The notes beneath the pieces were generated by a model. It ran no database searches, was not told the DNA's origin, and was given only the letters and a program-made list of their open reading frames with translations. A program made the position numbers and the translations under genes. A stretch of 64,000 nucleotides of DNA, taken from positions 1 through 64,000 of the forward strand of contig CAMDFT010000008.1 of NCBI GenBank assembly GCA_945897795.1. Direction: 5' to 3'. Below are positions 34,415-60,066 of the stretch, piece after piece; within the stretch, counting starts at the first letter, position 1, and every line of letters starts with the position of its first letter. Origin of the DNA: Limnohabitans sp. Rim8 (GTDB lineage: Bacteria; Pseudomonadota; Gammaproteobacteria; Burkholderiales; Burkholderiaceae_C).

Positions 34415-35014
34415 TCAAGGGGCCGCAGGAGGCGCCAAAATCGGCAACTCGGCAACCGGCAAAGGCATCAAGCTGGCGGACAAAGGCTGGGCCAAGTTCA
34501 CCATCGCTTTGCCGTAGAGGGTTTGACCCGCTTCATCCAGGGCGGCTCGCACCGCATCCAGTTGATCTGACGGCAACTGGGCACTGTCCAGACCACATTT
34601 GTAGAGGGTATTGACCTGTGCCGAGGGCAACCAAGACTCAACGGGGCCGTGGGAAGTGTTAATCAATTTGGTGTTTTTGGGCTCACCCAACATGCCCCGC
34701 TGGCCATCCTTGACGCCTTCTTGAAAAATCGCGTCAACGTGCTTGTGCAAAACCGTCTCATAAAGCACCCTCACCTCATCGACCGTAGAAGCGTCCAGCC
34801 CGTCTGGTAGCCGCCCGGACATGGCATCCCACAACTTTTTGGAGCTCAATCCAGCAAAAGGCCCTGCCAACGCCACCTCTTTGGGGGCATTCAGGGGCCT
34901 GGTCAATAGGCGGGTTTCCCTTTCAAGGGTGTTCACCCGGTCCAACAAATACATGATGAACACCAAAAGCACCAAAAGGCCCATGGCCATGAACGCAAGA
35001 GCAAAGGCTTCCAT
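34415..35014 (-). CDS. Unidentified membrane-anchored protein in flagellar operon
   Basis: 199 residues with one N-terminal helix (about 4-24, ALAFMAMGLLVLLVFIMYLL) followed by a hydrophilic, mostly helical domain (DEVRVLYETVLHKHVDAIFQEGVKDG) and a Pro/Leu-rich tail. I do not recognise a family. It lies between the 173-residue gene and fliS on the same strand with a 92-base gap to fliS, so it is probably part of the flagellar transcript. A role at the inner membrane is all that can be inferred. Confidence 0.7.
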   Translation of the reverse strand: MEAFALAFMAMGLLVLLVFIMYLLDRVNTLERETRLLTRPLNAPKEVALAGPFAGLSSKKLWDAMSGRLPDGLDASTVDEVRVLYETVLHKHVDAIFQEGVKDGQRGMLGEPKNTKLINTSHGPVESWLPSAQVNTLYKCGLDSAQLPSDQLDAVRAALDEAGQTLYGKAMVNLAQPLSASLMPLPVAELPILAPPAAP

Positions 35015-35047
35015 AGGGCCCCATTCCAGATCAAATTATCGAAGGCA

Positions 35048-35569
35048 TCAGGAAAGCCCTGAAGCGTCTTCATTATCTGGTGATTGGGCCAATTCGTCTC
35101 GCAAAAATTGCAAAACTTGAAAAGGCTCTTCCAGTTTCAACTCGTAGTAGCACAGTTGATTGGCCAAGCCCTGCATGGTCTCGATGGCCTTGATCGCAGG
35201 AATTGCGGCAGCCTGGTAGCGCCCGCCCAGAAAAAAAGCTTCATGGGCATATTCTTCGGGCAGGTAGACATAAATGTCGTTCTCACCTGCCTTGATTTTT
35301 TGAAAAACAGAGGGTTCTGGCAGCGGCGGCTTCTCTTTTCCGTTGGCGATCGCCAAGGCTGCCAACTCCTGCCAAGAGGCCATCTGTTCCGCACCGGTCA
35401 CAAAAGATTTGTCCAAGTGCGCGCGGCTCAGCAGGCCCATGCGAACGCGCATATTCCTGGCTTCGCGGGAATCTGACTGTGTCGAAATGATTTTCTCGAA
35501 AAGCGCTTGCGCCTTCCTCATTTCTTCGTCAGGATTTTTGGGTGAAAAGATGGAAAATATGGATGCCAT
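35048..35569 (-). CDS. Unidentified cytoplasmic protein in flagellar operon
   Basis: 173 residues, no signal or membrane helix. It begins MASIFSIFSPKNPDEEMRKA, with helical segments (RKAQALFEKIISTQSDSREA; AIPAIKAIETMQGLANQLCY) and an acidic C-terminus. No family recognised. It follows fliA by 24 bases and precedes the membrane-anchored gene by 33 bases, so the three genes are probably co-transcribed. The helical repeats could be TPR-like, but I see no clear repeat signature. Confidence 0.7.
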   Translation of the reverse strand: MASIFSIFSPKNPDEEMRKAQALFEKIISTQSDSREARNMRVRMGLLSRAHLDKSFVTGAEQMASWQELAALAIANGKEKPPLPEPSVFQKIKAGENDIYVYLPEEYAHEAFFLGGRYQAAAIPAIKAIETMQGLANQLCYYELKLEEPFQVLQFLRDELAQSPDNEDASGLS

Positions 35570-36309: not shown

Positions 36310-37134
36310 TCACCTTACCGAAGAGCCGCGAAGCATGCGCTCTGCAAAAAACTGCAGGCGCCCTGACGGCCCATCCACGGGCGGCATCTGATCGATGGCA
36401 TCGGCCAAAGCCCGGAAATCGCGCGCAGCAGCGCAGCCGGGGGCGAACTCAAGCACCGACTGGTATTTGCGCGAAGACTGCAGAACCAACTCATCGGCCT
36501 CAATGGACTGCAAAAACCTGACCGAAACCCCCAGGAAACGGTTGCACACATCGTTCAGGCGACGGTGCAGTTGCCTTCCCTCGTGGGCACTGCCCACCAT
36601 GTTCGGAATCAGGTAAATTTCATCCAGCGACTGCTCGGTGGCCATGACCTTGATCAAGCCGTAAGCATCGGCAATGGACGACGGCTGGTCACACACCACG
36701 ACGAAACGGCGCTGGCAAGCAGCCATGAAATCGAGAACGGCCGGAGCAATGCCCGCCGCCACATCCACCACCAAGAAGTCCACGGGCTCTTTCACGGTGT
36801 CAAAGGCCCGAACCATGCTGGCAATTTGCTGGGTATCCAGGGCCGCGATGTCCCGCAAGCCCGAAGCCCCCGGCACCAAGCGAATGCCCTGCTTGGTGGT
36901 CACCATCACTTCATCCAGCGTTTTTTCGCCGTTGAGCACATGGCTGATGTTGAAAGGGGCATAAGCACCCAAGGCAATTTGGGCGTTGGCCATGCCCAGG
37001 TCAGCGTCCAGCAGCATGACCTTGTGGCCACGCATGGCCAAGGCCACCGCCAGATTGATGGACACCGTGGTTTTGCCAGCACCCCCCTTGCCGCTTGCCA
37101 CACCAATGACCTGAGGAAAATTGGGCTTATCCAT
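36310..37134 (-). CDS. flhG: Flagellar number regulator FlhG (FleN, MinD-like ATPase)
   Basis: A 274-residue P-loop ATPase of the MinD/ParA type. The deviant Walker A is [20 protein letters not shown] (K-G-G-x-G-K-T), followed by [16 protein letters not shown] and [13 protein letters not shown]. FlhG limits polar flagella to one by antagonising FlhF and, in Pseudomonas and Vibrio, by inhibiting the sigma-54 master activator. The ATG at 37134 follows AAAGG; a GTG 6 bases farther up is possible. It overlaps the flhF 3' end. Confidence 0.92.
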
Positions 37135-38641
37135 GCGCACCTTTCAAGATGGAAGATGCTTTGGCGGAGGGTCGTCGCGAGGGGATCGTGGGTAGGCTGC
37201 TCATGAAAGTCGGGATCACGATGTCTTCATCCACCGAGTTTTCGCCCCGCATCTTTGCCGTCTTGGTGAGGGTTTTAGGCGCTTTGGCAACCGATGGCTT
37301 TTTGGCGCGGGAAACGCGTACAGGCGCATGGGTCACCACAGGCTCCACCGAAGGCACAGGCATCGCGGTCTGTGCAACGGGCGTCAGGGGCATCTGCTGT
37401 ACCAAAGGGCTCAGCGCCAATTGCACCAAACGCGACGCATCAAAAGGCTCTGCAGCGTGATCAATTCGGCTTGAACCCGCCACACAGGAAACCCCCAAGG
37501 ACTGCTCGCTCAAGCCCTTGATCAGCGCCCAGGGATAAGCGGCTTCGTCCACCTTGCTCAACATCAAGGAAGACCAACTCAAAGCAGAATTTTGAAGAAC
37601 TTTTTGCACACTGGTCACTGTAGCATCAACCGGTAACACGGCATGACGCAACACCTTCGGATGTTCGGTTTGCAGCAACTCGGCTTGGGCGCAAAAATCG
37701 GTCCCGCAGGTGTCGATCCAGACCGTTTTACCTTCCAGCTCCTGCAACAAGGTGCGCAACATGTCGGAGTTGGTGGCACGGAAACAAGCCACACCCGACT
37801 GCGCCGCCAACAACTGCATCTGGGCCCAGGCACCGGGGCGTTGATCGGCAAAACTGACCATCACCTGGTTTTCGACCCCATGGACTTGCGCTGCGGTGCA
37901 GGCCAGACGACCCACCATAGAGGTTTTGCCCGAACCAGAAGGACCGCACAAGGCATGAACGCCAGATTCAGGCAGCGTCATGGCTGCACGATTCAAAGCA
38001 CTGACCAGCAGACTATGCATCACAGGCCACGCGTCCTGAACACTTTCCAACTCCTGGATGCTGTCGGTCAGCAAAGCGCGCAGACCCGCAGGCACGCCCA
38101 CTTCGCTCATGGCCAAAGACAATTGCTGGATGGCGGGTGACAAACGCAGGCCATCTTGCCAAGGCATCATCTGTCGCGACAGGCTGAAGTCCTTGCGCAG
38201 TGCCGCCATTTCCAAGCGCAGCATTTCCACGATTTCCTGGCTGCGTTGGCCCTCATGGCGCAATTGCTCGGCCAGTGCCTCCACCTGTTTCACCGCCGGG
38301 GCTGACACCACGCCTGGTGACGCGGCCACTGCCGCTTCCAGTGGCAGAACCACATCAGGCAAGGACGCCTCGGGCAACAAAGGCGCCAAAGAACTGGCGC
38401 TTTGGAACAACTTGGAAAACGGCACAAAAGGCGCCGCAGCCCCGTCTTGGCCGTTCGCCTCAGCAACAGCGGGCGCGGACACTTCTGGCGCCGGCTGGGC
38501 ATCCAAGTCCACGGCCACGATCAGCTCGGTCTGATTGTCCAGGCGCTGGGTAGAGATGATCAACACGTCCGATCCGTACAACTGGATGGCCTTTTCGTTG
38601 GCAGAGCGACTGTCGCGAGCGAGGATGCGTTTGAGTTCCAT
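37127..38641 (-). CDS. flhF: Flagellar placement GTPase FlhF (divergent G domain)
   Basis: 504 residues. The N-terminal [20 protein letters not shown] and [10 protein letters not shown] match the FlhF B domain. An N domain and an SRP-like G domain follow with P-loop GPSGSGKTS (about 233-241). The other motifs depart from the family: FADQRPGAW where TTDTYRIGA is usual, DTCGTD for DTAGR and [10 protein letters not shown] for TKLDEA-SLG. A basic tail of about 90 residues ([11 protein letters not shown]...) is unusual. FlhF recruits the first flagellar components to the pole. It lies 6 bases after flhA. Confidence 0.88.
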
Positions 38642-40825: not shown

Positions 40826-40841
40826 AGCAATCTGTGTGCCA
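40826..40841 (-). promoter_or_regulatory. Sigma-54 (-24/-12) promoter of the flhA operon
   Basis: On the minus strand TGGCACA-CAGA-TTGCT matches the consensus TGGCACG-N4-TTGCW at all but one defined position, with GG and GC exactly 10 bases apart. Expected transcription start near 40815, about 50 bases before flhA. Confidence 0.75.
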
Positions 40842-40899: not shown

Positions 40900-40915
40900 T
40901 GGTGCGCAACTTGCT
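40900..40915 (+). promoter_or_regulatory. Sigma-54 (-24/-12) promoter of the fliK-flhB operon
   Basis: TGGTGCG-CAAC-TTGCT, with GG and GC 10 bases apart, fits the sigma-54 consensus except for two -24 positions. Expected start near 40926, about 80 bases before fliK. It is divergent from the flhA promoter 60 bp away, so one upstream activator site could serve both. Confidence 0.65.
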
Positions 40916-45992: not shown

Positions 45993-46769
45993 ATGAACTT
46001 CCTGGCCGCCGATGTCATCGAAAGGTTTTACACCTTTTTGTGGCCCATGCTGCGCATCTCGGCCCTCATGATCACCGCGCCCATCTTCTCGCTCAGCGCC
46101 TTCAACACCCGCATGCGCATCTTGGTGGCGCTGGTGCTGGCCTGGTTGGTCTACCCCTTGTACAACTGGCCCGTGATCGACCCCACCAGCGCCCAAGGTC
46201 TGCTCGAAGTCTTCAACCAAATCATGATCGGCGCCACCATGGGCCTGATCCTGCAAATCGTGGTCGCCGCCGTGGTGGTGGCAGGCCAAAGCATCGCCGC
46301 CGCCATGGGCCTGTCCATGGCCAACATGATCGACCCCAACATGGGCAACGTGCCCGTCATCTCACAGCTGCTCATCGTCATGTCCACCCTCATTTTTGTC
46401 GGCTTTGGGGGCCATGCCATCTTGCTGGGTCTGATCCTCGAATCCTTCAACACCCTGCCCATTGGCACCGACATCCTCAACCAAGCCGTCTACGGCCGGG
46501 TGCTGCAATGGAGCTCCATGATGTTCTTGGGCGCCGTGCTCATGGCCCTGCCCGTCATGGTCTCGCTGCTCTTCATCAACGTCGGCCTGGGCATCGTCAC
46601 ACGCGCCGCACCCAGCCTGAACATTTTTGCTGTGGGCTTTCCCGCCATGATCATGGCGGGCCTTGTCATTCTCATCATCTCGCTCGACAGCATTGGCGGG
46701 CGCATCGAATGGCTATGGGTTCAAGGTTTTTCGCTGGTTCGTGACGTCATAGGAGCGCCCCGTGTCTGA
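45993..46769 (+). CDS. fliR: Flagellar export gate protein FliR
   Basis: 258 residues with about six helices. Typical segments are PMLRISALMITAPIFSLSAF, GATMGLILQIVVAAVVVAGQ and NIFAVGFPAMIMAGLVIL. The start at 45993 fits the family. It overlaps flhB by 8 bases. FliR is the single subunit completing the FliPQR pore. Confidence 0.94.
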   Translation: MNFLAADVIERFYTFLWPMLRISALMITAPIFSLSAFNTRMRILVALVLAWLVYPLYNWPVIDPTSAQGLLEVFNQIMIGATMGLILQIVVAAVVVAGQSIAAAMGLSMANMIDPNMGNVPVISQLLIVMSTLIFVGFGGHAILLGLILESFNTLPIGTDILNQAVYGRVLQWSSMMFLGAVLMALPVMVSLLFINVGLGIVTRAAPSLNIFAVGFPAMIMAGLVILIISLDSIGGRIEWLWVQGFSLVRDVIGAPRV

Positions 46770-47922
46770 AAGCGCACAAGACAAAACAGAAGACCCGACG
46801 GCGCAAAAGCTCAAAAAAGCGCGCGACGACGGCCAGGTTGCCCGGTCCATGGAACTGCCTGCCGCCGTCATCGTCATTGGCGCCATTGCCATGCTCATGG
46901 TCACGGGCAGCTGGGTCATCACCCGGCTCTCCGCCGTGTTCGCGCAAGGCTTCGTATTTGACCGCCAGCTGATCGAAAAACCCCTGCTCCTGCCCGCCCA
47001 CTTTGGCGAGCAAATGCTGTCCGCCTTCATTCTCGTGATGCCCGTCATCCTTTTCACCATGGTGGCCGCCGTCATCGCCTCGGGCCTCACCGGGGGCTAC
47101 TTGTTCTCTCTGGGTGCCGTCATGCCCAAGGGCTCCAAGCTCAACCTCATCAGCGGGCTCAAGCGCATCTTTGGCACACACGCCTTGGTGGAACTGGGCA
47201 AAGCCATCCTGAAATTCGTACTGGTCGCGACGGTGTTGTGGTGGTCACTCATGGCCAACATGGACTCGCTCGTCCAAATTGGCCAAATGGGACTGGAACC
47301 TGCACTGGACGCGGCAGGCAAGATGATCCTCCAATCGGGCCTGTGGGTGTCACTCAGCCTGGCCGTCATCGCCTTGATCGACGTGCCCTGGCAAAAGCAC
47401 AGCTTCACCAAACGCATGCGCATGAGCAAGCAAGAGGTCAAAGACGAATACAAGCAAATGGAAGGCAGCCCCGAAGTCAAGGCCCAGATCCGCAGGCGTC
47501 AACGCGAAATGGCCAACTCGCGCATGATGGACCGCATCAAAGACGCCGACGTCGTGATCACCAACCCCGAACACTTCGCCGTGGCCCTCGAGTACGACCC
47601 CACCGGCGACGGTGCGCCCATCATGGTGGCCAAAGGCTCCGACCACATGGCCGCCCTGATTCGTGCCGAGGCTAAAAACCACGGCATCCACATTTTTGAA
47701 GCCGCCCCACTGGCCCGTGCCATCTACTTCACCACCGAAGTCGAGCGCCAAGTGCCCGAAGACCTTTACCACGCCGTGGCCCAAGTCATTGCCTACGTCT
47801 TCAGTCTCGAAGCCGCCTCGCCCCTGAACCCGCCTAGCCCCAAGCCCCAAGTGAAAGTGCCCCCCAGCATGCAATTCAGTCCTGACGGCAAGAAAGCCCA
47901 AGCCCAAGGAGCCACCGCATGA
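46762..47922 (+). CDS. flhB: Flagellar export switch protein FlhB (NPEH cleavage motif)
   Basis: 386 residues beginning at GTG 5-6 bases after AGGAG. QDKTEDPTAQKLKKARDDGQ is the canonical FlhB start, followed by four helices and the cytoplasmic FlhB_C domain. The self-cleavage motif, NPTH in most FlhB and YscU proteins, reads N268-P269-E270-H271 here (ITNPEHFAVALEY). Asn and Pro needed for cyclisation and His are kept. FlhB switches export from hook to filament substrates on a FliK signal. It overlaps the following gene by 4 bases. Confidence 0.94.
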   Translation: MSESAQDKTEDPTAQKLKKARDDGQVARSMELPAAVIVIGAIAMLMVTGSWVITRLSAVFAQGFVFDRQLIEKPLLLPAHFGEQMLSAFILVMPVILFTMVAAVIASGLTGGYLFSLGAVMPKGSKLNLISGLKRIFGTHALVELGKAILKFVLVATVLWWSLMANMDSLVQIGQMGLEPALDAAGKMILQSGLWVSLSLAVIALIDVPWQKHSFTKRMRMSKQEVKDEYKQMEGSPEVKAQIRRRQREMANSRMMDRIKDADVVITNPEHFAVALEYDPTGDGAPIMVAKGSDHMAALIRAEAKNHGIHIFEAAPLARAIYFTTEVERQVPEDLYHAVAQVIAYVFSLEAASPLNPPSPKPQVKVPPSMQFSPDGKKAQAQGATA

Positions 47923-48908
47923 AGACCCCGGTCACAACCCATGCCCCCAACCCGGACGACTTCGTCTTCCGGGCCGCCGACCGCATGCGCATCGACGGCT
48001 GCACCAACGCCATCGCCCGCGAAGGGCTGAGCCTGTCGCTGCAATGCGAACACGAAGCCCTGCTCGATCACTACACCAACCTGCTGCTCAAACGCCTGCG
48101 GCAAGAAGCCCCCGAACACCACATCGAGGTTTATTTCCCAACCAACACCGATGCCTTGCTCGCCCGCTTCAACGACGCACTGGCCCGCCAATCGGTACAA
48201 CAAGCCACGCGCACCGCCACCGGCGTCAGCGCTGCACAAATTTGGGTCGTGCACGACGCCCAAGCCCTGCCCGATGCCGAAATTCAGCTGCTCGCCCGCC
48301 TGATTCAGAACTTTCCTGGCGCCAACATCCGGGCCATCCTGCTCATGAAAGGCCCTGCAGACGGGTACAGCAACCTGTCCGCCTTCGGCCGCAAAATCCT
48401 GCGCTGGGAAATCGAAGCCCCCAACGCCGAACAGGCCCAAGCAACGCTCGACACCGCCCGCTACGAAGGCCGCTTGCAGCCCGTGCAACAGCTGCTCAAA
48501 CGCATCAACCGTCAAGCCTGGGCCGAAGATGCCCCCCTCGCCGACACCCAAGACGCGGCCGACTTCGCCGACGAAGCCCCCACGCCATCGCGCCCCCACC
48601 GCGCCAGCCGGGTCAAGCAACATGTGCAAGCCTTTCACGAAAAAGGCCAAGAAGCCCTGGCCAAAAGCACCCGACTCCTGGGCAAATGGGACAAAAACCA
48701 CACCCGACTGCTGCTCTGGGTCATGGCCGCACTGACCCTGTCCACCGCCACCATGCTCTGGCTCCAGCCTGAAGCCTTTGGCATAGGCAAAGCCCCCCAC
48801 GGCCAGACCTCCATGCCCAAGCCACTCCCCATTGAGTTGCCACAACCCGGTGCAGGCAACACCCCAGCCCAGCCCGAAGCCCCCGCGACGCCCGTCAAGC
48901 TTCCCTGA
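47919..48908 (+). CDS. Unidentified membrane protein with degenerate ATPase-like domain, flagellar operon
   Basis: 329 residues, starting within the flhB stop codon (ATGA overlap), so translationally coupled. The N-terminal about 200 residues resemble an ExeA/DamX-type AAA domain: AIAREGLSLSLQCEHEALLD sits where a Walker A loop would be but lacks Gly-Lys-Thr/Ser, while IWVVHDAQALP resembles a Walker B strand. A single helix (about 263-282) and a Pro-rich tail follow. I know no characterised family that fits. Its place directly behind flhB suggests a flagellar assembly role. Confidence 0.75.
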   Translation: MKTPVTTHAPNPDDFVFRAADRMRIDGCTNAIAREGLSLSLQCEHEALLDHYTNLLLKRLRQEAPEHHIEVYFPTNTDALLARFNDALARQSVQQATRTATGVSAAQIWVVHDAQALPDAEIQLLARLIQNFPGANIRAILLMKGPADGYSNLSAFGRKILRWEIEAPNAEQAQATLDTARYEGRLQPVQQLLKRINRQAWAEDAPLADTQDAADFADEAPTPSRPHRASRVKQHVQAFHEKGQEALAKSTRLLGKWDKNHTRLLLWVMAALTLSTATMLWLQPEAFGIGKAPHGQTSMPKPLPIELPQPGAGNTPAQPEAPATPVKLP

Positions 48909-48927
48909 CCCCGCACAGGAACACGCC

Positions 48928-49431
48928 GTGAAAAAATCCACCCTCATCCGCAGCGACCAACCCCACGCCGTCAAAATGCCAGCGGGCTCGAATGTGGCCG
49001 CTCGCCAAAACACCCAAAAATTCAAGTCATCGGAAACCACCGAGGACAGCCCCACCAACATTCAAAAAGTGGCGCCCGTCAAAACCCCAAAAAGCAAGCG
49101 CGCCGAGCCCCCCGCTCCGATCGTCAAAGCCGTGCGTGCCAAAGCCCTCAAGAGCCCGCCGGTCGAAACCCCGACCCCACGCGCCAAACCCCAATCCAAA
49201 CCCGCATCCGGCCCAACGGCCAGGGCCAAACCCAAACTGCGCACCGCGCCGCCCACCAGCAGCGCCAAAGCGCAAGCCCTGGACGCCGCGCCCACAACGA
49301 TTCAGCCCATCTGGGAACAAGACAACCCCGTCAAAACCCGCATCGATCAACTCAGAGCCCGTAACGCCCAATTGGCAGAACAACTCCAGCGACTCCCGCA
49401 GATGCCCACAGCCCGAGGAAAACAACCATGA
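48928..49431 (+). CDS. Unidentified basic Pro/Lys/Ala-rich protein, flagellar operon
   Basis: 167 residues from a GTG at 48928 preceded by CAGGA; earlier in-frame codons lie within the previous gene. Most of the protein is disordered-looking, with repeated Lys-Pro/Ala-Lys (KTPKSKRAEPPAP; RAKPQSKPASGPTARAKPK), ending in a short helix (TRIDQLRARNAQLAEQLQRL) that could be a coiled coil. No signal peptide. It overlaps the next gene by 4 bases. A linker or scaffold between its two membrane-protein neighbours is conceivable but unproven. Confidence 0.65.
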   Translation: MKKSTLIRSDQPHAVKMPAGSNVAARQNTQKFKSSETTEDSPTNIQKVAPVKTPKSKRAEPPAPIVKAVRAKALKSPPVETPTPRAKPQSKPASGPTARAKPKLRTAPPTSSAKAQALDAAPTTIQPIWEQDNPVKTRIDQLRARNAQLAEQLQRLPQMPTARGKQP

Positions 49432-50417
49432 GCGACAAAGACTTCACCCCCACCGACCCCATCCTTGTGGAAGCCACCGAGAGCGAGGACAGCACCGCCC
49501 AAGCCCCTCACAGCGCCAGCAACACGTTCCCCAGCGCTGCGGCACCCCCCAACAGCGCTGCGGCACCGGCCCCTGAGTCGCCACCACACCTGGGATTCAG
49601 CGTCGATGAACGCGCCTACCGGCAATACCAATCGCTGGCCCAAGTCGTGCTCGACTCGGCCGACATCGCCAGCAAGTCCGCCGAATCCGCCGCCGCCGCC
49701 AGCAGAAACATGCACAAGGCCACCACCGAATTCAAAGACCTGACCGAAGTCGGCCACAAAAAAGCCCTGATCCTGCTGGGCGCCACAGGTGGTCTGATGG
49801 TGATTTGTCTCATCTTCTTTTTGGTCATGGGCGTGCGCATGAACAGCCGCATCAACCAACTCGACACCATGATGCTGGCTGTGGGCAAGCGCGTGGTCGA
49901 CCTCAACGTCGGCCTCGAATCGCTCAACGTCATGAACCGCAGCATCGAAGGCCTGACAGCGCAACAAGTCGAACAAGCCAAAAACCAAGGCCAGATCGAA
50001 ACACGCATCAGCGACGCCCTCAAAAAATCCGAAACCATGGTGCAGACCGTGCCCGGAGAAACCGCCAAACAAGTCGCCGCCACCAGCGACAACCTGCTCA
50101 AACAAGTCCAAGCCATCAACGGCCGCCTGCAAAGCCAGGCCGGTGCCGTGCAAAGCCTGGGCAACGAAGTCAAAGCCCTCAAAGGCGCGGTCGGCAACGT
50201 CGACAAGCTCAACAGCGACGTCCAGGCCCTGGTGACCCTGCAAAAAGAACGCTACCTCGAAACCCTGCAGAAAAACAGCGCCAACGCCAACGCCAACACC
50301 AACCGCGCCGTCCAATTCCCACGCGCCAGCCCGCCCAAACCCGCAGGCGAAGCCGCGGCCAATGTCCCAGCTATTTCCCCAACCAATGCCACCGCAGCCC
50401 CGGCCATGCCGCGGTGA
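49428..50417 (+). CDS. Unidentified coiled-coil membrane protein, end of flagellar operon
   Basis: 329 residues. A Pro/Ala-rich N-terminus (1-60) is followed by an amphipathic helical stretch (YRQYQSLAQVVLDSADIA), one membrane helix (about 113-135, ALILLGATGGLMVICLIFFL) and a long coiled-coil region (about 140-280) with regular Leu/Val spacing, then an Asn/Ala/Pro tail. The layout resembles chemoreceptor-like or tethering proteins, but no HAMP or signalling hairpin is seen. It is the last gene of the fliK-flhB operon, coupled to the previous gene by ATGA. Confidence 0.7.
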   Translation: MSDKDFTPTDPILVEATESEDSTAQAPHSASNTFPSAAAPPNSAAAPAPESPPHLGFSVDERAYRQYQSLAQVVLDSADIASKSAESAAAASRNMHKATTEFKDLTEVGHKKALILLGATGGLMVICLIFFLVMGVRMNSRINQLDTMMLAVGKRVVDLNVGLESLNVMNRSIEGLTAQQVEQAKNQGQIETRISDALKKSETMVQTVPGETAKQVAATSDNLLKQVQAINGRLQSQAGAVQSLGNEVKALKGAVGNVDKLNSDVQALVTLQKERYLETLQKNSANANANTNRAVQFPRASPPKPAGEAAANVPAISPTNATAAPAMPR

Positions 50418-50498
50418 AGACGCCACACGCAAGCGCCCGCATGGCGGCATCGGGGTCCACCGTCAACGACCAGCCCTTGGGTCTGCTCAATTAGATTT

Positions 50499-50527
50499 CG
50501 CTGATCGGCACGCGCCGCCGATCAGCG
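50499..50527. terminator. Strong hairpin between convergent operons
   Basis: CGCTGATCGGC (50499-50509) and GCCGATCAGCG (50517-50527), an 11-bp perfect stem with a 7-base loop, between the flagellar operon end and the convergent 50550-50960 gene. It lacks a T run, so it may act with Rho or as a transcript stabiliser. Confidence 0.5.
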
Positions 50528-50549
50528 GGTGCCAGCGGCCGCTGTGGGC

Positions 50550-50960
50550 TTATTGGACGCACATGGCGATGTAGGTGAGCACAAAAACGCCATTGGGTGG
50601 AATTTTTCGCCAGTAGCCCATTTCTTTGACCTCGGCAACTTTTGCGCCTGTCATTTTGGGACCCGCAAAACTGGTCATTTGACCCAGCCGGTGCATCTTG
50701 TAGGTGCAGTCGTACTCGTTCAGGTAACGCCTTGAGCGCACCCCTTCGGCATCCGGTGTTTTGAGATCCTGCATTTCCCAGACCCGGCGAATGTTGTCTT
50801 CACGCTCGATGCTGTTGCGGTTCACGTACAGCGTCACTTCCGGGGTTTCTCCGATGCGGGTCCAGGCCCATGCTGCCGCAGGTCCCAGGCTGCTTATCAA
50901 GCCGGCACAGCACAGGCTCCACCGCACCACAGCACGCATTGAAAATGCTCGGATCGTCAT
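50550..50960 (-). CDS. Exported surface-adhesin E-like protein
   Basis: 136 residues with a signal peptide (about 1-30, ending AAAWA). The mature part WTRIGETPEVTLYVNRNSIE...RRVWEMQDLKTPD...SRRYLNEYDC matches the small 'surface-adhesin protein E'-like fold often found in Betaproteobacteria as a periplasmic or surface protein. The ATG at 50960 is chosen because the upstream TTG at 50972 would extend into the preceding gene. It overlaps the end region of the FemAB-like gene and is presumably co-transcribed. Confidence 0.65.
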   Translation of the reverse strand: MTIRAFSMRAVVRWSLCCAGLISSLGPAAAWAWTRIGETPEVTLYVNRNSIEREDNIRRVWEMQDLKTPDAEGVRSRRYLNEYDCTYKMHRLGQMTSFAGPKMTGAKVAEVKEMGYWRKIPPNGVFVLTYIAMCVQ

Positions 50961-50968
50961 GTTTGTTC

Positions 50969-51895
50969 TCAAAAATAAGTTCCCGCAAGGGTGATGGCTT
51001 GACCGCCTGTGCCCAGTTTGAAGCGAGAGATGCCGGGCAGATCGTGGGTGTTGACGCCCCCCAGATCGAGCACCTCAATGCCCTGCTCCTGCAAATAAGC
51101 CATGGCCTGCCAAAGCAATGCATTGTGGGCATTGAGCTGCCGGCCCTCTTCGTCAGCCCAGCCCATATGGTAACTGGCCACTCGGCCGTGAATCAGAAAG
51201 AGCATGCCGCCCACGGTGTTCTTGCCCAGTTCGGCATACGCCACCACAAAGGCCTGACGGGGGTCGGCCGCAGCGGCGATGTAGGCCTGCACAAAATCGG
51301 TGGGCAAACCATGGAATTTTTTTGCTTCGCGCTGGGCGATTTCCTGGCCCAGCAGCCAATCACAGCGCTTTCGGCTCGGTTGCACATGGACACGCAGTTT
51401 CACATGGGCCTGCACTTTGTTCAAACGGTTGCGCCACTTGCCCTCGAGCTGGGCTTTCAAAGTGGGCAGCGGGTGGGTCAAATCGAGCAGCACCGTGGCG
51501 TAACCGGTCATCACCCGCGACATGCCCCGAGTTTCAAGCGGATCGAGTTGTTCGCCTGTGCGGTCGGGCGAAAACAAGGGGACTTTCAGGCGCGGCAGCG
51601 GAATCGTTTGGCGCAGGCGCTTGTAAATGTCCGCTCGTTGCGCGGGGCTGAGGTCGGGAAGGAAGATCGGACCCCGCGTGCAAGAGGCCAAAGAGATGTA
51701 ACCCAGCACCCGTTTGCACATGAATTGGGCGATGGCCACCAAGCGGCCATCCTCGAAAACCATGGCCCTCCGCATGTTCACGCCCACTGAGGTCAAGGCC
51801 TCACCGTAAATCCATGCCTGCTGCAAAGCGCCGCGCTGGGTCGAATGAAATTCTTCCCAATCGGCTTGTGGCAATTGCTCCCATATCAAATCCAT
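50969..51895 (-). CDS. FemAB/GNAT-like acyltransferase
   Basis: 308 residues with the double-GNAT layout of FemAB-type aminoacyl/acyl transferases: an N-terminal half ending in YATVLLDLTHPLPTLKAQL, and KWRNRLNKVQAHVKLRV, characteristic of the family ('lrknlRnrirka'). The C-terminal half has VGGMLFLIHGRVASYHMGW and LDLGGVNTHDLPGISRFKLG. It probably transfers an acyl or aminoacyl group to a cell-envelope substrate. It is divergent from the small-protein/motAB unit and upstream of the exported adhesin-like gene. Confidence 0.75.
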   Translation of the reverse strand: MDLIWEQLPQADWEEFHSTQRGALQQAWIYGEALTSVGVNMRRAMVFEDGRLVAIAQFMCKRVLGYISLASCTRGPIFLPDLSPAQRADIYKRLRQTIPLPRLKVPLFSPDRTGEQLDPLETRGMSRVMTGYATVLLDLTHPLPTLKAQLEGKWRNRLNKVQAHVKLRVHVQPSRKRCDWLLGQEIAQREAKKFHGLPTDFVQAYIAAAADPRQAFVVAYAELGKNTVGGMLFLIHGRVASYHMGWADEEGRQLNAHNALLWQAMAYLQEQGIEVLDLGGVNTHDLPGISRFKLGTGGQAITLAGTYF

Positions 51896-56219: not shown

Positions 56220-56288
56220 ATGCAACAAGACACAACACATCCACGCACCGCTTTGGTCAGTGTGGGTGCCCGTTCATGGAGAAGCACA

Positions 56289-56783
56289 ATGACCCGTACC
56301 CGATCACTGGCAGCCGCCCTGCTGACCACCTTGGCCTTGGCCGGATGCCAATCCCTGCCCTTGAACATTCAGGCAAAGGACGCCACCGTCCCGCAGGCGC
56401 CCGCCGCCTCGATGCTCAGCCCCTTGGTGGAAAAGCGTGAAACCCTGGTGGCCACGGGTTACGCCGTCATCAGCGTACAAAACCACAAAAACCCGGCGCA
56501 GCAACGCCTGTTGGCCATCCGCGCCTCCAAGCTTGACGCTTACCGTTCTTTGACCGAGCAGGTCTATGGCCAACAACTTGACGCCACCACCACCGTGGCC
56601 GACATGACGGTCATGAGCGACACCTTCCGCGCCAAGGTAGAGGGCGTGATCTACGGCGCCACCATGGTCAGCATCACCCCGGTCGGCGAAGACACTTACG
56701 AGACCACCATGTCGCTGGACCAGTACGTGGTGCGTGATTTGCGTGCCTTGTACCTCGGTCAGATGACTTCGCGCCGCCGCTGA
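56289..56783 (+). CDS. flgP: Flagellar outer-membrane lipoprotein FlgP (LPP20 family)
   Basis: 164 residues. The signal sequence ends LALAGCQS, so Cys20 is lipidated. The mature part VATGYAVISVQNHKNPAQQR, IRASKLDAYRSLTEQVYGQQ and TVADMTVMSDTFRAKVEGV matches FlgP, which forms basal disks or the H ring around sheathed or high-torque polar motors in Vibrio and Campylobacter. GGAGAA lies 6 bases before the ATG at 56289. The neighbouring FlgT-like gene supports the assignment. Confidence 0.82.
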   Translation: MTRTRSLAAALLTTLALAGCQSLPLNIQAKDATVPQAPAASMLSPLVEKRETLVATGYAVISVQNHKNPAQQRLLAIRASKLDAYRSLTEQVYGQQLDATTTVADMTVMSDTFRAKVEGVIYGATMVSITPVGEDTYETTMSLDQYVVRDLRALYLGQMTSRRR

Positions 56784-56808
56784 TCACCCCTCAGATTGGA
56801 CTGACCCC

Positions 56809-58056
56809 ATGCTGGCCCTTATGAACTCGCCCCGCCCTGCCTGGTTGCGCATCAGCGCTGCCGTGCTGGCCTGTGCGTTGGCCAGTACGGCCTCAGCCCA
56901 AAGCCCCAGCCCTGCCGAATTGGCAGCCAAAGCGCTGGCCTCGGCCCCGGTGCAGGCCCTGTTGAATGCCCAGTCCCAGTCGGCCAAGGCGGCCCAGAAG
57001 AACCCACAAAATAACCACGACGCGCAACTCGCCGCCATCCGTCAGGCCATTCTGGAAGCCACCCTGGACCGGCCCACACGGGTGGTCAGCACGGCTTGGG
57101 TGGACCACCAGGGGGCTTTGCACGAAAGCGCCCATTTCCACTCCGAGGCGCAGGTGCGCGGCGTGCGGGTCTTGTCTTATGTGCAAGGCAACGAACCCGT
57201 GACCCAGGTCAGCGCCGAGGTCTTGCCCTGGGGCTGGAAGCCCGTGGGAGCAGACCAGAGCTGCAAGGCACCACCCCGGCCCTGGCGTTTGCCTTTGGGC
57301 GTGCAAGTCGTGATGCCTGAGGGCTTCAGTGGCCCGCAACTGTTTGCCAGCCAGACCCTGCTGGCGCTGGCGCAGCAGGCCTGGAGCCAGAACATGCAAG
57401 CCTCTCAGCGCTGGCGCACGCACAGCGTGGCGCAGGCCGCCCCGCAGTCAGACAACGCTTACATGCGTGCGCTCACCGGCCAGACCGAAGAGCGCAGCGG
57501 CTGGACAGCCGAGATTTCGCTGCAGCCGCACGCCCCGGTTGTGGCACGTTCGTGGACTGAGTACCTCGGCCTGAACGCCAGTGCCTCGCCGTTGCACTGG
57601 ACAATGAGCTTGCGCTTGGGCCAAAAGCTCAGCCCGGCCTCGCGCCTGGTGCCGCAGTGGCAAATCGAACAAATCATCTCGATCTCTCCCTTGGCCCTGG
57701 CGCAAAGCCCCACGGCCTGGGCGCAGCAGATGCAAGGCCTTTTGCAAGAGCGCATGCACCAATGGGTGGCCCAGCTGGACAAGCAAACCGAATGCGAACC
57801 GGTGCAGTTCCATGTGCGCCGCCAAGGCACGCAGTCCCTCGAGCTGCAAGCGGGCTTTGACAGCGGATTGCGCCCCGGTGACCGCGTGCTCTTGATGGAC
57901 CCCGCCCATGTGCCGGCCCGCATGCTAGAGCCTGGGGTGGCCCAGCACCTGGCCTTGGCCCAGGTGGTCAAGGTCGGCCCACACCGCACCGAGCTGCAAC
58001 AACTCGCGGGCCCAGCCCTAGCCTCGCATGGCGCCTGGATGGCCCTGCCCTTGTGA
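56809..58056 (+). CDS. FlgT-like flagellar assembly protein
   Basis: 415 residues with a signal peptide (about 5-31, ending TASAQ). The N-terminal domain (QLAAIRQAILEATLDRPTRV; SEAQVRGVRVLSYVQGNEPV) and the C-terminal domain (LELQAGFDSGLRPGDRVLLM; ALAQVVKVGPHRTELQQLAG) resemble the two outer domains of FlgT, the H-ring protein that surrounds LP rings in Vibrio. The start could be 12 bases later. It lies 25 bases after flgP. Overall identity is too low to be sure by eye. Confidence 0.65.
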   Translation: MLALMNSPRPAWLRISAAVLACALASTASAQSPSPAELAAKALASAPVQALLNAQSQSAKAAQKNPQNNHDAQLAAIRQAILEATLDRPTRVVSTAWVDHQGALHESAHFHSEAQVRGVRVLSYVQGNEPVTQVSAEVLPWGWKPVGADQSCKAPPRPWRLPLGVQVVMPEGFSGPQLFASQTLLALAQQAWSQNMQASQRWRTHSVAQAAPQSDNAYMRALTGQTEERSGWTAEISLQPHAPVVARSWTEYLGLNASASPLHWTMSLRLGQKLSPASRLVPQWQIEQIISISPLALAQSPTAWAQQMQGLLQERMHQWVAQLDKQTECEPVQFHVRRQGTQSLELQAGFDSGLRPGDRVLLMDPAHVPARMLEPGVAQHLALAQVVKVGPHRTELQQLAGPALASHGAWMALPL

Positions 58057-58086
58057 GCCTGTTCAACCCCGAACCACACCACCCCT

Positions 58087-58653
58087 ATGACCTCTGCCGT
58101 TTCTCCTCACCGTCACTTGGCCACCTGGCTGCTCGGCTGCTTCGCGCTGGTCAGCTGGAGTTCAGCGGCCTGGTCCGCTGACACTGCCGGGGCCTTGGCA
58201 CTCAAGGCACTGCTGGGCCCGCAAGCCGCGTTCCAGCAAATGGGCGGCTTGCCACCCACACCGGCCCATTCGGCGGAGGGTCTTGCACACACCAGCCCTT
58301 CGGCCATCACCTCGGCACCCGCGGCCGCAGCCATGGCAAGCGGCACGGTCACGGTGCAACGCGGCGAGACGCTGGACCGCCTGATCCGCAGGACTTTGCC
58401 GGATGTCCCTTTGCACCCCGACTTTTTGCGCAAGGCCTTTGTGACCCTGAACCCGCAGGCTTTTCCATCAGGTTCACCCCATCAGATGCGGGCTGGGGTC
58501 CAATTGAAGGTGCCCAGCATGCCGGCCTTGCGCCAGATGGTGTTGAGCCAGCACCCGGGGGCAGCAGCTTTGCTCGGCGGGGCTGACAAACCGGCAGAAC
58601 AAAAGCTTGCGCACGAGCCGAACGACCAGCGCCGCTGGGTGCGTTTCCCCTGA
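58087..58653 (+). CDS. Exported LysM/FimV-like protein, flagellar cluster
   Basis: 188 residues with a signal peptide (about 12-31, ending AAWSA). Residues about 88-143 resemble a LysM or FimV-type domain: VTVQRGETLDRLIRRTLPD, FVTLNPQAFPSG and MRAGVQLKVPS. Such domains bind peptidoglycan or localise polar machinery. It lies 30 bases after the FlgT-like gene and 20 before the FliK-like gene, in the FlgO position of FlgOPT clusters, but it is not FlgO by sequence. Confidence 0.65.
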   Translation: MTSAVSPHRHLATWLLGCFALVSWSSAAWSADTAGALALKALLGPQAAFQQMGGLPPTPAHSAEGLAHTSPSAITSAPAAAAMASGTVTVQRGETLDRLIRRTLPDVPLHPDFLRKAFVTLNPQAFPSGSPHQMRAGVQLKVPSMPALRQMVLSQHPGAAALLGGADKPAEQKLAHEPNDQRRWVRFP

Positions 58654-58672: not shown

Positions 58673-59791
58673 ATGATCACCGGGGCTGAAACCGCCCACC
58701 TCAGCCCTAAGATTCCGACCATTTACCTGGATGGAAAACTGCCCCTGGTGGTCGAGCGCAGCGCCGCCGAACTGGGCTTGCGCGACGGCCAGGTGATTCA
58801 ATCCACCGTCGAAAACCGCCAAGACCGGATTCGTCTGATCCTGCAAGACCCCGCGCAAGCCGGCCGTTTTATTGACTTGCCCAAAGAACTGCCCGCGGGG
58901 CTGCGCCTGGCTTCGGGCGACACGGCCCTGTTTCGGGTGCAACTGCAAAGCGATGGCTCGATCTGGCTGCGCCCGCTGCAAGCCACCGCTGCGGCTGCCC
59001 CCGCAGCCGCTGCACCTTTGGCGCAAATGCCCAACCGCATGCAACAGCTGGGATTCAGACCCCCCGACATGGGCGCCCTGGCCCTGCTGCTGCGTCCGGG
59101 CGGTCTGGACAGCCTGCTGCAAAGTCTGAACTCGGCGTCCCCCGAGCTGGCAGTTTTGCAGCAGTGGCAACGCATGCGCCCCAGCATGGCCCAACTGACG
59201 CCGGAAAAACTCCAGCAACTCATGCAGCGCAGCGGCCTGATGACCGAAGCTTTGCTGTCACAGGGCCACGGCAGTGGTCTGGTTGACTTGAAGTCGGGTC
59301 TGCGGCAGTTGTTGCGACTGCTGCAAAGCACCAGCCACGAGGCGACGGGCCGTGTGCAAGATGCCATCGACGACATCGAGTCGCACCAACTCACTGCAGC
59401 CGACACCCTGACAGGGCGCGAATGGGTGTTTTCGATGATGCTGCCTTTTGCGGACGCCGAACCCGTGGCGCTGCGATTTGTGCGGGGCCGCAGCAAGCGG
59501 GGCGAAGAAAAGGCACCGCTGGTCATTCACTTGCACACCCGCAACCGCGAACTGGGCGAAGTGTGGCTGCAAACACGCATCAGCGACCAGACCGAAGTCG
59601 ACATGGTCATGTGGGCCTTGCGCGAGGATGTGGTGAAACGGGCACGCGACCTGACGCCCAACCTGGCCGAAGAGCTGGACAGCGCAGGCCTGAACATGAC
59701 CCGGCTGCACATCATCCACGGCCCAGGCCCTTCCGAGCCCATGCCCTGGAACCCGCCCGAGACCGGCAGCTTGCTGGATGTGCAGACATGA
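58673..59791 (+). CDS. Second FliK-like hook-length control protein
   Basis: 372 residues. The N-terminal half is variable (LDGKLPLVVERSAAELGLRD; Ala/Pro-rich 100-120). The C-terminal half has EWVFSMMLPFADAEPVALRF, VIHLHTRNRELGEVWLQTRI and LAEELDSAGLNMTRLHIIHG, a Flg_hook-type fold as in FliK. The start at 58673 follows AGG. It overlaps the FlhB C-terminal-domain homologue by 4 bases. Such paired genes occur in many motile proteobacteria, but the role of the second FliK is unsettled. Confidence 0.75.
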   Translation: MITGAETAHLSPKIPTIYLDGKLPLVVERSAAELGLRDGQVIQSTVENRQDRIRLILQDPAQAGRFIDLPKELPAGLRLASGDTALFRVQLQSDGSIWLRPLQATAAAAPAAAAPLAQMPNRMQQLGFRPPDMGALALLLRPGGLDSLLQSLNSASPELAVLQQWQRMRPSMAQLTPEKLQQLMQRSGLMTEALLSQGHGSGLVDLKSGLRQLLRLLQSTSHEATGRVQDAIDDIESHQLTAADTLTGREWVFSMMLPFADAEPVALRFVRGRSKRGEEKAPLVIHLHTRNRELGEVWLQTRISDQTEVDMVMWALREDVVKRARDLTPNLAEELDSAGLNMTRLHIIHGPGPSEPMPWNPPETGSLLDVQT

Positions 59792-60066
59792 AAGCCCCGC
59801 TGAAAGAGGCGATTGCGCTGGAGTATGGCAAGCGCAAAACCCCCGTCATCAGCGCCAAGGGTGAAGACGAGCTGGCCCAGCGCATCATCGACGAAGCCCA
59901 GCGCCACGGCGTGTACGTGGCCGAAGACCCCCAGTTGCTGGCCTTGCTCAGCCGCATCGACCTGGACAAGGAAATCCCCCCCGAGCTCTACACCGCCGTG
60001 GCCGTGATTTTGTCGTGGGTTTACTGGCTCAAGGGCATGCGCCCGGGCGACGAAAAAAGCCCGTAA
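59788..60066 (+). CDS. FlhB C-terminal-domain homologue (FhlB-like)
   Basis: 92 residues corresponding to the cytoplasmic C-terminal part of FlhB without the membrane helices or the NPTH motif: AIALEYGKRKTPVISAKGED, RIIDEAQRHGVYVAEDPQLL and IPPELYTAVAVILSWVYWL. In Salmonella the similar FhlB can substitute for the cleaved FlhB C-terminus. It is translationally coupled (ATGA) to the FliK-like gene, suggesting that the pair acts together in export switching. Confidence 0.85.
   Translation: MKAPLKEAIALEYGKRKTPVISAKGEDELAQRIIDEAQRHGVYVAEDPQLLALLSRIDLDKEIPPELYTAVAVILSWVYWLKGMRPGDEKSP

Follow-up and report, generated by a model that had tools for sequence, protein, structure and literature searches.

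Three genes directly behind flhB, which we call P1, P3 and P2, were analysed in a 64,000-nucleotide stretch of Limnohabitans sp. Rim8 DNA (contig CAMDFT010000008.1, positions 1 to 64,000; hereafter the window), and sequence comparison supports the view that they are part of one type of flagellum. Their linkage to the gene for one class of FlhB (type-1), their architecture and the conservation of their motifs are documented below, and from these we infer a mechanism: the three genes may encode a dedicated inner-membrane accessory complex that links an FlhF/FlhG flagellum to the peptidoglycan of the pole, a proposal that we put forward tentatively. The window belongs to a genome of 3.26 Mb (164 contigs, 87% complete) from a freshwater Limnohabitans-like bacterium, the close named relatives of which are Limnohabitans and other Comamonadaceae records. 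In the direction 5' to 3' the gene order is flhB, P1, P3, P2:

46762..47922, plus strand: flhB, type-1 FlhB (TIGR00328, 381 bits against a cut-off of 349)
47919..48908, plus strand: P1, 329 residues, with a cytoplasmic pseudo-AAA+ domain, a transmembrane helix and a Pro-rich tail, and without SPOR domain
48928..49431, plus strand: P3, a basic low-complexity protein with a conserved N-terminal motif and a C-terminal helix (alignment of 27 sequences)
49428..50417, plus strand: P2, a bitopic membrane protein, mainly helical

The ATG of P1 at 47919 overlaps the TGA of flhB by 4 bases (ATGA, 47919-47922) and the ATG of P2 at 49428 overlaps the P3 stop codon, likewise by 4 bases, as an earlier note made from the letters of this DNA had described for both junctions. 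P1 and P3 are separated by 19 bases, and P3 starts with the GTG at 48928, a choice that is backed by homologues beginning with VKK or MKK. P1, P2 and P3 each scored below every Pfam and NCBIfam curated cut-off, in keeping with the statement of the same note that none of them matches a known flagellar component.

Linkage of the three genes to one class of FlhB

A P1 profile search of the contig collection yielded 159 coding relatives, the best 80 of which were named and inspected as loci; some of these come from the same genomes as the genome-level sets used below, so that the two sets overlap and are not independent. In all 80 named loci flhB lies directly upstream of P1, and the called P1 start reads [AG]TGA in 71 of them, as expected of a stop-start overlap. 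P2 was found downstream of P1 in 71/80 loci, and in the other nine only 1 to 937 bases follow P1 before the contig stops.

For the co-occurrence of P1 and FlhB within the family, two draws of 200 genomes (equal size, identical handles) were used, one of which was searched with P1 and the other with FlhB. P1 was detected in 7 genomes and FlhB in 156. The FlhB proteins fell into a class near that of the window (type-1; 7 genomes, 52-100% identity, at least 422 bits) and another class (149 genomes, best score at most 259 bits, at most 40% identity among the matches listed), and P1 was present in 7/7 genomes with type-1 FlhB versus 0/149 with other FlhBs. The Fisher p value of 2.6e-12 for this contrast and a further co-occurrence p of 7.6e-10 ignore relatedness and serve as a rough guide. 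The P2 profile matched 13 of 299 family genomes, including one (G199) with an FlhB of the other type only and no P1 match; there P2 stands at the start of a contig beside motB, motA and a sigma-54 activator, so that the flhB side is cut off.

At order level, type-1 FlhB (at least 49% identity) occurred in 6/280 genomes, the next best FlhB reaching 41% and 277 bits. P1 follows the type-1 flhB directly in five of the six; in the genome G422, flhB is followed at a distance of about 640 bases by P2, and P1 was not detected. The five genomes with P2 among 250 of the order are all among the six with type-1 FlhB, and the co-occurrence of P1 with this FlhB type spans three families of the order. Within the genus (60 genomes, type-1 FlhB called at E 1e-80 or lower), type-1 FlhB and P2 were each found in 44 genomes: both in 42, neither in 14, FlhB only in 2 and P2 only in 2. 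All four discordant genomes are at contig edges, with other module genes present: the contig ends behind flhB and P1 in G016 and behind flhB, P1, SPOR and P3 in G852, and in G845 and G868 P3 and P2 (in G868 also P1) lie on contigs that break off ahead of a complete flhB. Some genus genomes, G001, G841 and G865 among them, carry a second FlhB-like gene, 31-35% identical, beside the type-1 gene, and in the 12 kb read at the second fliN-fliP-fliR-type locus of these three, module genes were absent. In the other-type loci of G205, G088 and G160, flhA comes after flhB. At class level the P1 profile matched 26/274 genomes; apart from the window's own P1 and a paralogue described below, the matches listed begin at profile position 246 or later and hence are probably other SPOR or linker proteins. 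The P3 profile matched the window's own genome and, among the 274 genomes, three others weakly (E 1.6e-4 to 5.6e-4), which we think are chance matches.

Homologues are thus not scattered away from flagellar loci, and the assignment of the module to this flagellum, made in the earlier note, is supported by P1 lying behind flhB in 80/80 loci and occurring in 7/7 versus 0/149 genomes. That the three are passenger genes, co-transcribed and without a flagellar role, would agree with the lack of a match to any curated flagellar family; given the complete linkage and the fact that the genes accompany a single FlhB type in three families, we consider it highly improbable and rejected it. The module could also aid FlhB/FlhA assembly, substrate switching or timing, as the 4-base overlap with flhB, the constant place behind this gene and the resemblance of P3 to a small adaptor would suggest. 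However, the 149 genomes with other FlhBs have flagella without P1, and the periplasmic SPOR domain that most P1 homologues carry would not be expected of an export-gate factor, so that we regard such a role as unlikely.

Architecture of P1, P3 and P2

The domains and motifs of the three proteins map to the window as follows:

47958..48518, plus strand: P1 pseudo-AAA+ domain, about residues 14-200, without Walker A
48708..48764, plus strand: P1 transmembrane helix, residues 264-282, mean hydropathy 1.86
48943..49005, plus strand: P3 N-terminal motif, in the window LIRSDQPHAVKMPAGSNVAAR, with P12, G20 and A24 invariant in 27 rows
49309..49395, plus strand: P3 C-terminal helix-like motif, with L142 and N146 invariant and L153 and L156 nearly so
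49770..49826, plus strand: P2 transmembrane helix, residues 115-133, within one unbroken predicted helix (59-207)
50313..50324, plus strand: P2 C-terminal QFPR tag; the pattern [QR][FY]P[RK] occurs within the last 70 residues of 69/69 complete homologues

The earlier note had described P1 as a degenerate AAA-like domain with one membrane helix, which the structural comparison bears out. The AlphaFold model of a P1 homologue (L071; mean predicted local distance difference test, pLDDT, of 80.4) shows an AAA+ fold in residues 9-213, with a best Z of 12.7 to an AAA+ structure at a root mean square deviation of 5.0 over 189 residues, and 866 of 971 aligned chains reached a Z of at least 8. Matches to the AAA+ domain fill the 50 chains listed, and we draw no conclusion from the absence of SPOR structures among them. 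ATP binding in such proteins involves the Walker A motif, GxxxxGK[ST]. It was found in residues 1-200 of none of 80 P1 proteins, on which ground we rejected ATPase activity for P1. At the place of Walker B, 78/80 match a loose HD-A-like expression. Lysine and arginine are commoner on the N-terminal side of the transmembrane helix in 67 of 78 homologues, with the reverse in one and a tie in ten, suggesting that the N terminus of P1 is probably cytoplasmic.

Most of the examined P1 homologues are longer than the 329 residues of the window's protein, and among the complete named P1, 61 of 75 carry a SPOR-like (peptidoglycan-binding) domain at the C terminus, as detected by tblastn with the SPOR ends of other P1. 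The P1 of the window ends 47 residues past the transmembrane helix and gave no Pfam SPOR match. Among eight P1 scanned, two, L045 (23.5 bits) and L047 (25.4 bits), passed the gathering score of 21 for Pfam SPOR (PF05036). The profile of an alignment of 49 members, about 12 of them SPOR-less forms (A3), had a single match below E 0.6 in the PDB, the SPOR domain of Escherichia coli DamX (2LFV, 4.5e-4), and aligned by hhalign to residues 338-427 of E. coli DamX with E 1.6e-6 and probability 90. Residues 341-410 of the L071 model run strand-helix-strand-strand-helix-strand (block pLDDT 80-96), an order that we take to be that of the SPOR fold. The window's own genome encodes a paralogue (G000:C31; L049:4205-5272, minus strand), which the P1 profile covers over residues 33-345 of 355 with E 6.8e-15 and which likewise consists of an AAA-like part, a transmembrane helix and a SPOR domain (18.5 bits, below the Pfam cut-off of 21). 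None of the other 27 query genes of the window matched at E 1e-4 in the 14 kb around it, so that no flagellar locus is apparent there. With a second protein of this layout in the same genome, P1 looks like the branch of a larger pseudo-AAA/SPOR family that belongs to the flagellum.

With its cytoplasmic part, single transmembrane helix, Pro-rich linker and C-terminal SPOR, the typical P1 resembles E. coli DamX (b3388), whose SPOR is the closest solved sequence. DamX itself is a septal protein with a role in division. P1, by contrast, is encoded within a flagellar operon and its cytoplasmic domain has an AAA+ fold, and the P1 of the window is without SPOR; Pfam finds no AAA domain in DamX, and the match of the P1 profile covers only the SPOR stretch (one E. 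coli DamX was compared). We set aside P1 as a DamX of the E. coli type: the SPOR is common to both, and this comparison reported no match for the N-terminal part. The SPOR of 61/75 complete P1 would also fit a function in wall passage, in which P1 and P2 recruit wall hydrolases so that the rod or the stators can cross the peptidoglycan. Such a function seems quite improbable to us, as no hydrolase domain was found and P1 or its SPOR is absent in several lineages.

The middle protein, P3, has a pI of 11.1 and contains 14% Pro and 11% Lys. The earlier description of it as basic and Pro/Lys-rich therefore stands, whereas that of a merely disordered protein does not, since P3 represents a conserved family with two motifs. 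The N-terminal consensus is PHxVxMPEGSxVA (27 aligned sequences) and the C-terminal one MDFPARLIHLKIENDxVRxQL, with LWEQDxPVKxRIxQLRxRN as the Limnohabitans form; the linker between them varies. P3 was called automatically in 58/80 loci, and among the 22 others are some contig ends and some loci missed by the expression (L071, L100 and L118 were seen by eye). Each of the 17 loci chosen for reading has a P3-like gene that separates P1 from P2, L100 being clear for the C-terminal motif only.

For P2, the characterization as a coiled-coil membrane protein agrees with a transmembrane helix embedded in a long predicted helix. The model, which is weak (mean pLDDT 67.8; predicted template modelling score, pTM, 0.22), continues with helices 213-254 and 258-287 and a low-confidence end. 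The sole profile match to a solved structure up to E 0.01 was nuclear-pore Nsp1 (E 0.008), which we took as a chance coiled-coil match, and Pfam coiled-coil matches (DUF7310, 2.8e-4), below the cut-off, were not trusted either. The FlgY/FlbB/MotE group, motor scaffolds of coiled-coil type close to the inner membrane, offers a likeness, and FlbB has an N-terminal transmembrane helix according to the accessible part of PMC13023049. In these proteins a helical stalk is followed by a globular head, whereas the P2 model, of low confidence, contains helices only; flgY mostly adjoins fliJ or fliK according to the same part of this source, whereas P1, P3 and P2 adjoin flhB.

This likeness leads to an alternative that we rate nearly as good as placement or anchoring of the flagellum, although it is itself rather unlikely: P2 would surround the basal body with a ring or spokes in the periplasm, analogous to the E-ring, basal disk or H-ring, and position the stators, with P1 as the tie to peptidoglycan and P3 as an assembly adaptor. 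P2, a long helix anchored in the membrane and ending in a conserved tag, would suit this task, and the locus also has an LPP20 lipoprotein, with motAB nearby. The E-ring uses the membrane-anchored coiled coil FlbB as a scaffold and is lacking in beta- and gamma-proteobacteria, as stated in the part of PMC13023049 that was available, which makes other scaffolds plausible. On the other hand, a globular head like that of FlgY or FlbB is missing from the low-confidence P2 model, P2 has no Pfam relation above cut-off, the gene overlap is with an export gene, and P1, the presumed tie to the wall, is dispensable.

P1 alleles, promoter sites and neighbouring genes

The state of P1 was mapped on a tree of 96 FlhB proteins, 86 of which had an assigned state (67 with SPOR, 13 without SPOR, 6 without P1; part of the SPOR states were assigned by hand), and ten changes were required. 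Since the SPOR is found in most deep branches, repeated loss is the simple reading. In a same-genus set of 25 rows, restricted to complete P1 and FlhB, the tree of the P1 N-terminal domain required one change of SPOR state (support 91) and the FlhB tree five; the P1 N-domain tree of all 76 P1 rows required three. Both P1 and FlhB trees are quick ones in which some branches are long; in addition, flhB evolves more slowly than P1 and P3.

Between the window and the SPOR-bearing locus L067, protein identity is 94% for FlhB, 89% for P2, 76% for P3 and 66% for the P1 N-domain, and the corresponding values for the SPOR-less L077 are 97%, 92%, 89% and 92%. DNA identity with L067 is 90-97% over most of flhB, falls to 78-87% in P1 and most of P3, and is 90-99% in P2 except for its first part (82%). 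Between the window and L065, L067 and L077, flhB and P2 are about 88-97% identical, although P1 alleles with and without SPOR occur among these operons, and P3 diverges too. The contrast between P1 and FlhB trees together with the dip in identity suggests that the SPOR was probably lost once within this section of the genus and that alleles were exchanged later; SPOR-bearing and SPOR-less P1 alleles have thus likely been swapped by recombination between closely related operons. In six Limnohabitans-type loci (L038-L042, L050) P1 is missing altogether and P3 follows flhB directly, with P2 behind it, which makes P3 and P2 look like the core and P1 like an option.

Promoters recognized by sigma-54 carry the -24/-12 pattern TGGCAC-N5-TTGC, and two sites of this type were found in the window:

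40827..40841, minus strand: site before the divergent flhA-flhF-flhG-fliA, exact match
40900..40914, plus strand: site before fliK, 2 mismatches

The fliK-side site precedes the called start of fliK by about 35 bases and P1 by about 7 kb. Across the window 109 matches with two mismatches were observed versus 139 expected, so that this site, taken singly, is no better than chance. With a looser expression, 23 of the 25 Limnohabitans-like loci in which this region is present showed TGGTGC-N5-TTGC at the equivalent position, none of 20 more distant loci matched there, and the divergent flhA-side site recurred in 43/45 loci. No sigma-70-like promoter was found within 46500-51000. Judged by its recurrence in the same place, the site at 40900-40914 is likely the promoter of the fliK...flhB-P1-P3-P2 operon; the single sigma-54-type promoter invoked in the earlier note is thus at chance level as an individual site and gains support from the 23/25 loci.

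On the plus strand the flagellar genes of the window are fliK (Flg_hook), fliL, fliM, fliN, fliO, fliP, fliR and flhB, of which fliP and fliR were named from position and conserved neighbourhood rather than by family search, and fliQ received no separate call. The minus strand holds flhA, an flhF-like gene, at the flhG position a MinD-like gene that scores below the MinD cut-offs, and fliA. The FlhF-like protein (37127-38641, minus strand) obtained 92 bits against the TIGR03499 cut-off of 174, and FlhF is thus divergent here. Behind fliA are two genes for proteins of 199 and 173 residues (34415-35569, minus strand) with no NCBIfam match at 1e-5 and no Pfam match at 0.05. An Adhesin_E protein and a FemAB/GNAT-like protein (50550-51895, minus strand) lie between P2 and motA, as in many, not all, related loci. 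The region 56220-58653 (plus strand) encodes an LPP20 lipoprotein, which we take to be FlgP-like, a protein of 415 residues without known family and one of 188 residues, and possibly supplies parts of an outer flagellar ring; a sub-threshold FimV_core/LysM-like match is located at 58432-58536. In the protein encoded at 59422-60066 (plus strand), the C-terminal part (residues 126-200) matches FlhB solely in its cytoplasmic C-terminal domain (PF01312), and short matches of this kind were counted by eye in about 43 of 60 genomes of the genus.

A possible role in placing or anchoring the flagellum at the pole

The flagellum to which the module belongs is probably sigma-54-controlled, with FlhF- and FlhG-like genes, and occurs in Limnohabitans and some other Burkholderiales; its polar position we infer from FlhF and FlhG. 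For a placement or anchoring complex, P1 would be a bitopic adaptor, the AAA+-fold domain of which has lost the nucleotide site and may serve as a protein-binding platform. The division site later turns into the new pole; there the ancestral periplasmic SPOR of P1 would bind glycan denuded by amidases, so that the complex would mark the wall of the pole for placement or anchoring of the flagellum. P2 would act as a membrane coiled-coil scaffold with its QYPR-type C-terminal tag as a docking site, and P3 as a flexible adaptor that joins partners through its two motifs, perhaps P1 or P2 on one side and FlhB or FlhF on the other. P2 and P3 would form the core, and P1 with its SPOR the variable part that is swapped or lost between species; in the species of the window, P1 would no longer have a SPOR of its own.

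Attachment to peptidoglycan is favoured by the SPOR of the relatives, and among the suggestions of the earlier note that of a polar anchor fits best. In Sinorhizobium, the SPOR of RgsS binds amidase-processed peptidoglycan and matters for the selection of the new pole, as described in the accessible part of PMC7822825, and considering this role at new poles a placement or anchoring complex is the best fit for P1, P3 and P2. FipA is comparable as a membrane helper tied to FlhF/FlhG flagella and a partner of FlhF, and the module may be its functional counterpart. The available part of PMC11620751 places fipA directly downstream of the operon that contains flhF and flhG and reports FipA only together with FlhF/FlhG and in polar flagellates. 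No PF10975 (DUF2802) was found among the matches of P1, P2 and P3 up to E 1, which sets them apart from FipA, and DUF2802 was detected in none of 15 genomes of the genus searched, leaving room for another FlhF helper. HubP/FimV shares with P1 that it spans the membrane and, as stated in the accessible part of PMC12918733, has a periplasmic LysM-like domain where most P1 carry the SPOR. It differs in that no LysM or FimV model appeared among the Pfam and NCBIfam matches of P1, P2 and P3 up to E 1 and in that FimV is encoded separately in the window's own genome.

Several observations weigh against placement or anchoring. At E 0.05, Pfam SPOR was found in only 2/49 members of alignment A3, and the domain is thus divergent and its glycan binding not assured. 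The window's P1 without SPOR and the six loci without P1 indicate that wall binding by P1 is not essential for this flagellum, and since the SPOR arm is absent in the species of the window, a wall-reading step would not be general. DUF2802 is also absent from five of the nine other-family genomes in the same search (present in four). FimV, a polar organiser, is encoded in the window's own genome, so that no landmark is clearly missing, and the idea of a missing landmark was dropped. The coupling to flhB could equally mean an export-gate role. The residues flanking the transmembrane helix of P2 weakly place its N terminus inside (lysine plus arginine richer on the N-terminal side in 39, poorer in 16 and equal in 14 of 69 proteins). 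Lastly, none of the sources used showed that these bacteria have flagella. The part of PMC3591437 that was available holds no passage on flagella of the bacteria or on motility, and in one abstract, as far as it was accessible, L. australis is called non-motile.

A bolder form of the placement proposal, which we consider doubtful, is that the cassette reads the cell wall: the pseudo-AAA+/SPOR protein would recognise denuded glycan at the new pole and recruit the FlhF/FlhG flagellum, replacing FipA, and the wall-reading allele would be exchanged by recombination between closely related operons, so that species switch between a wall-bound and a wall-free state.

A literature search at the level of titles and the beginnings of abstracts, with most subscription papers outside its reach, found no SPOR protein of a flagellar operon described, and no paper on Limnohabitans motility genes or on genes downstream of flhB was found. 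New here are the SPOR of the P1 relatives, the loss of the P-loop, the P3 motifs, the end tag of P2, the link to a single FlhB type and a probable exchange of P1 alleles. These findings bear on the question of how a polar flagellum comes to sit at the correct pole when no landmark is universal. With its link to a single flagellum type and a SPOR in most examined homologues, the module, together with its SPOR-less natural variants, provides a ready set for comparison. It also adds uncharacterised flagellar families in non-model freshwater bacteria.

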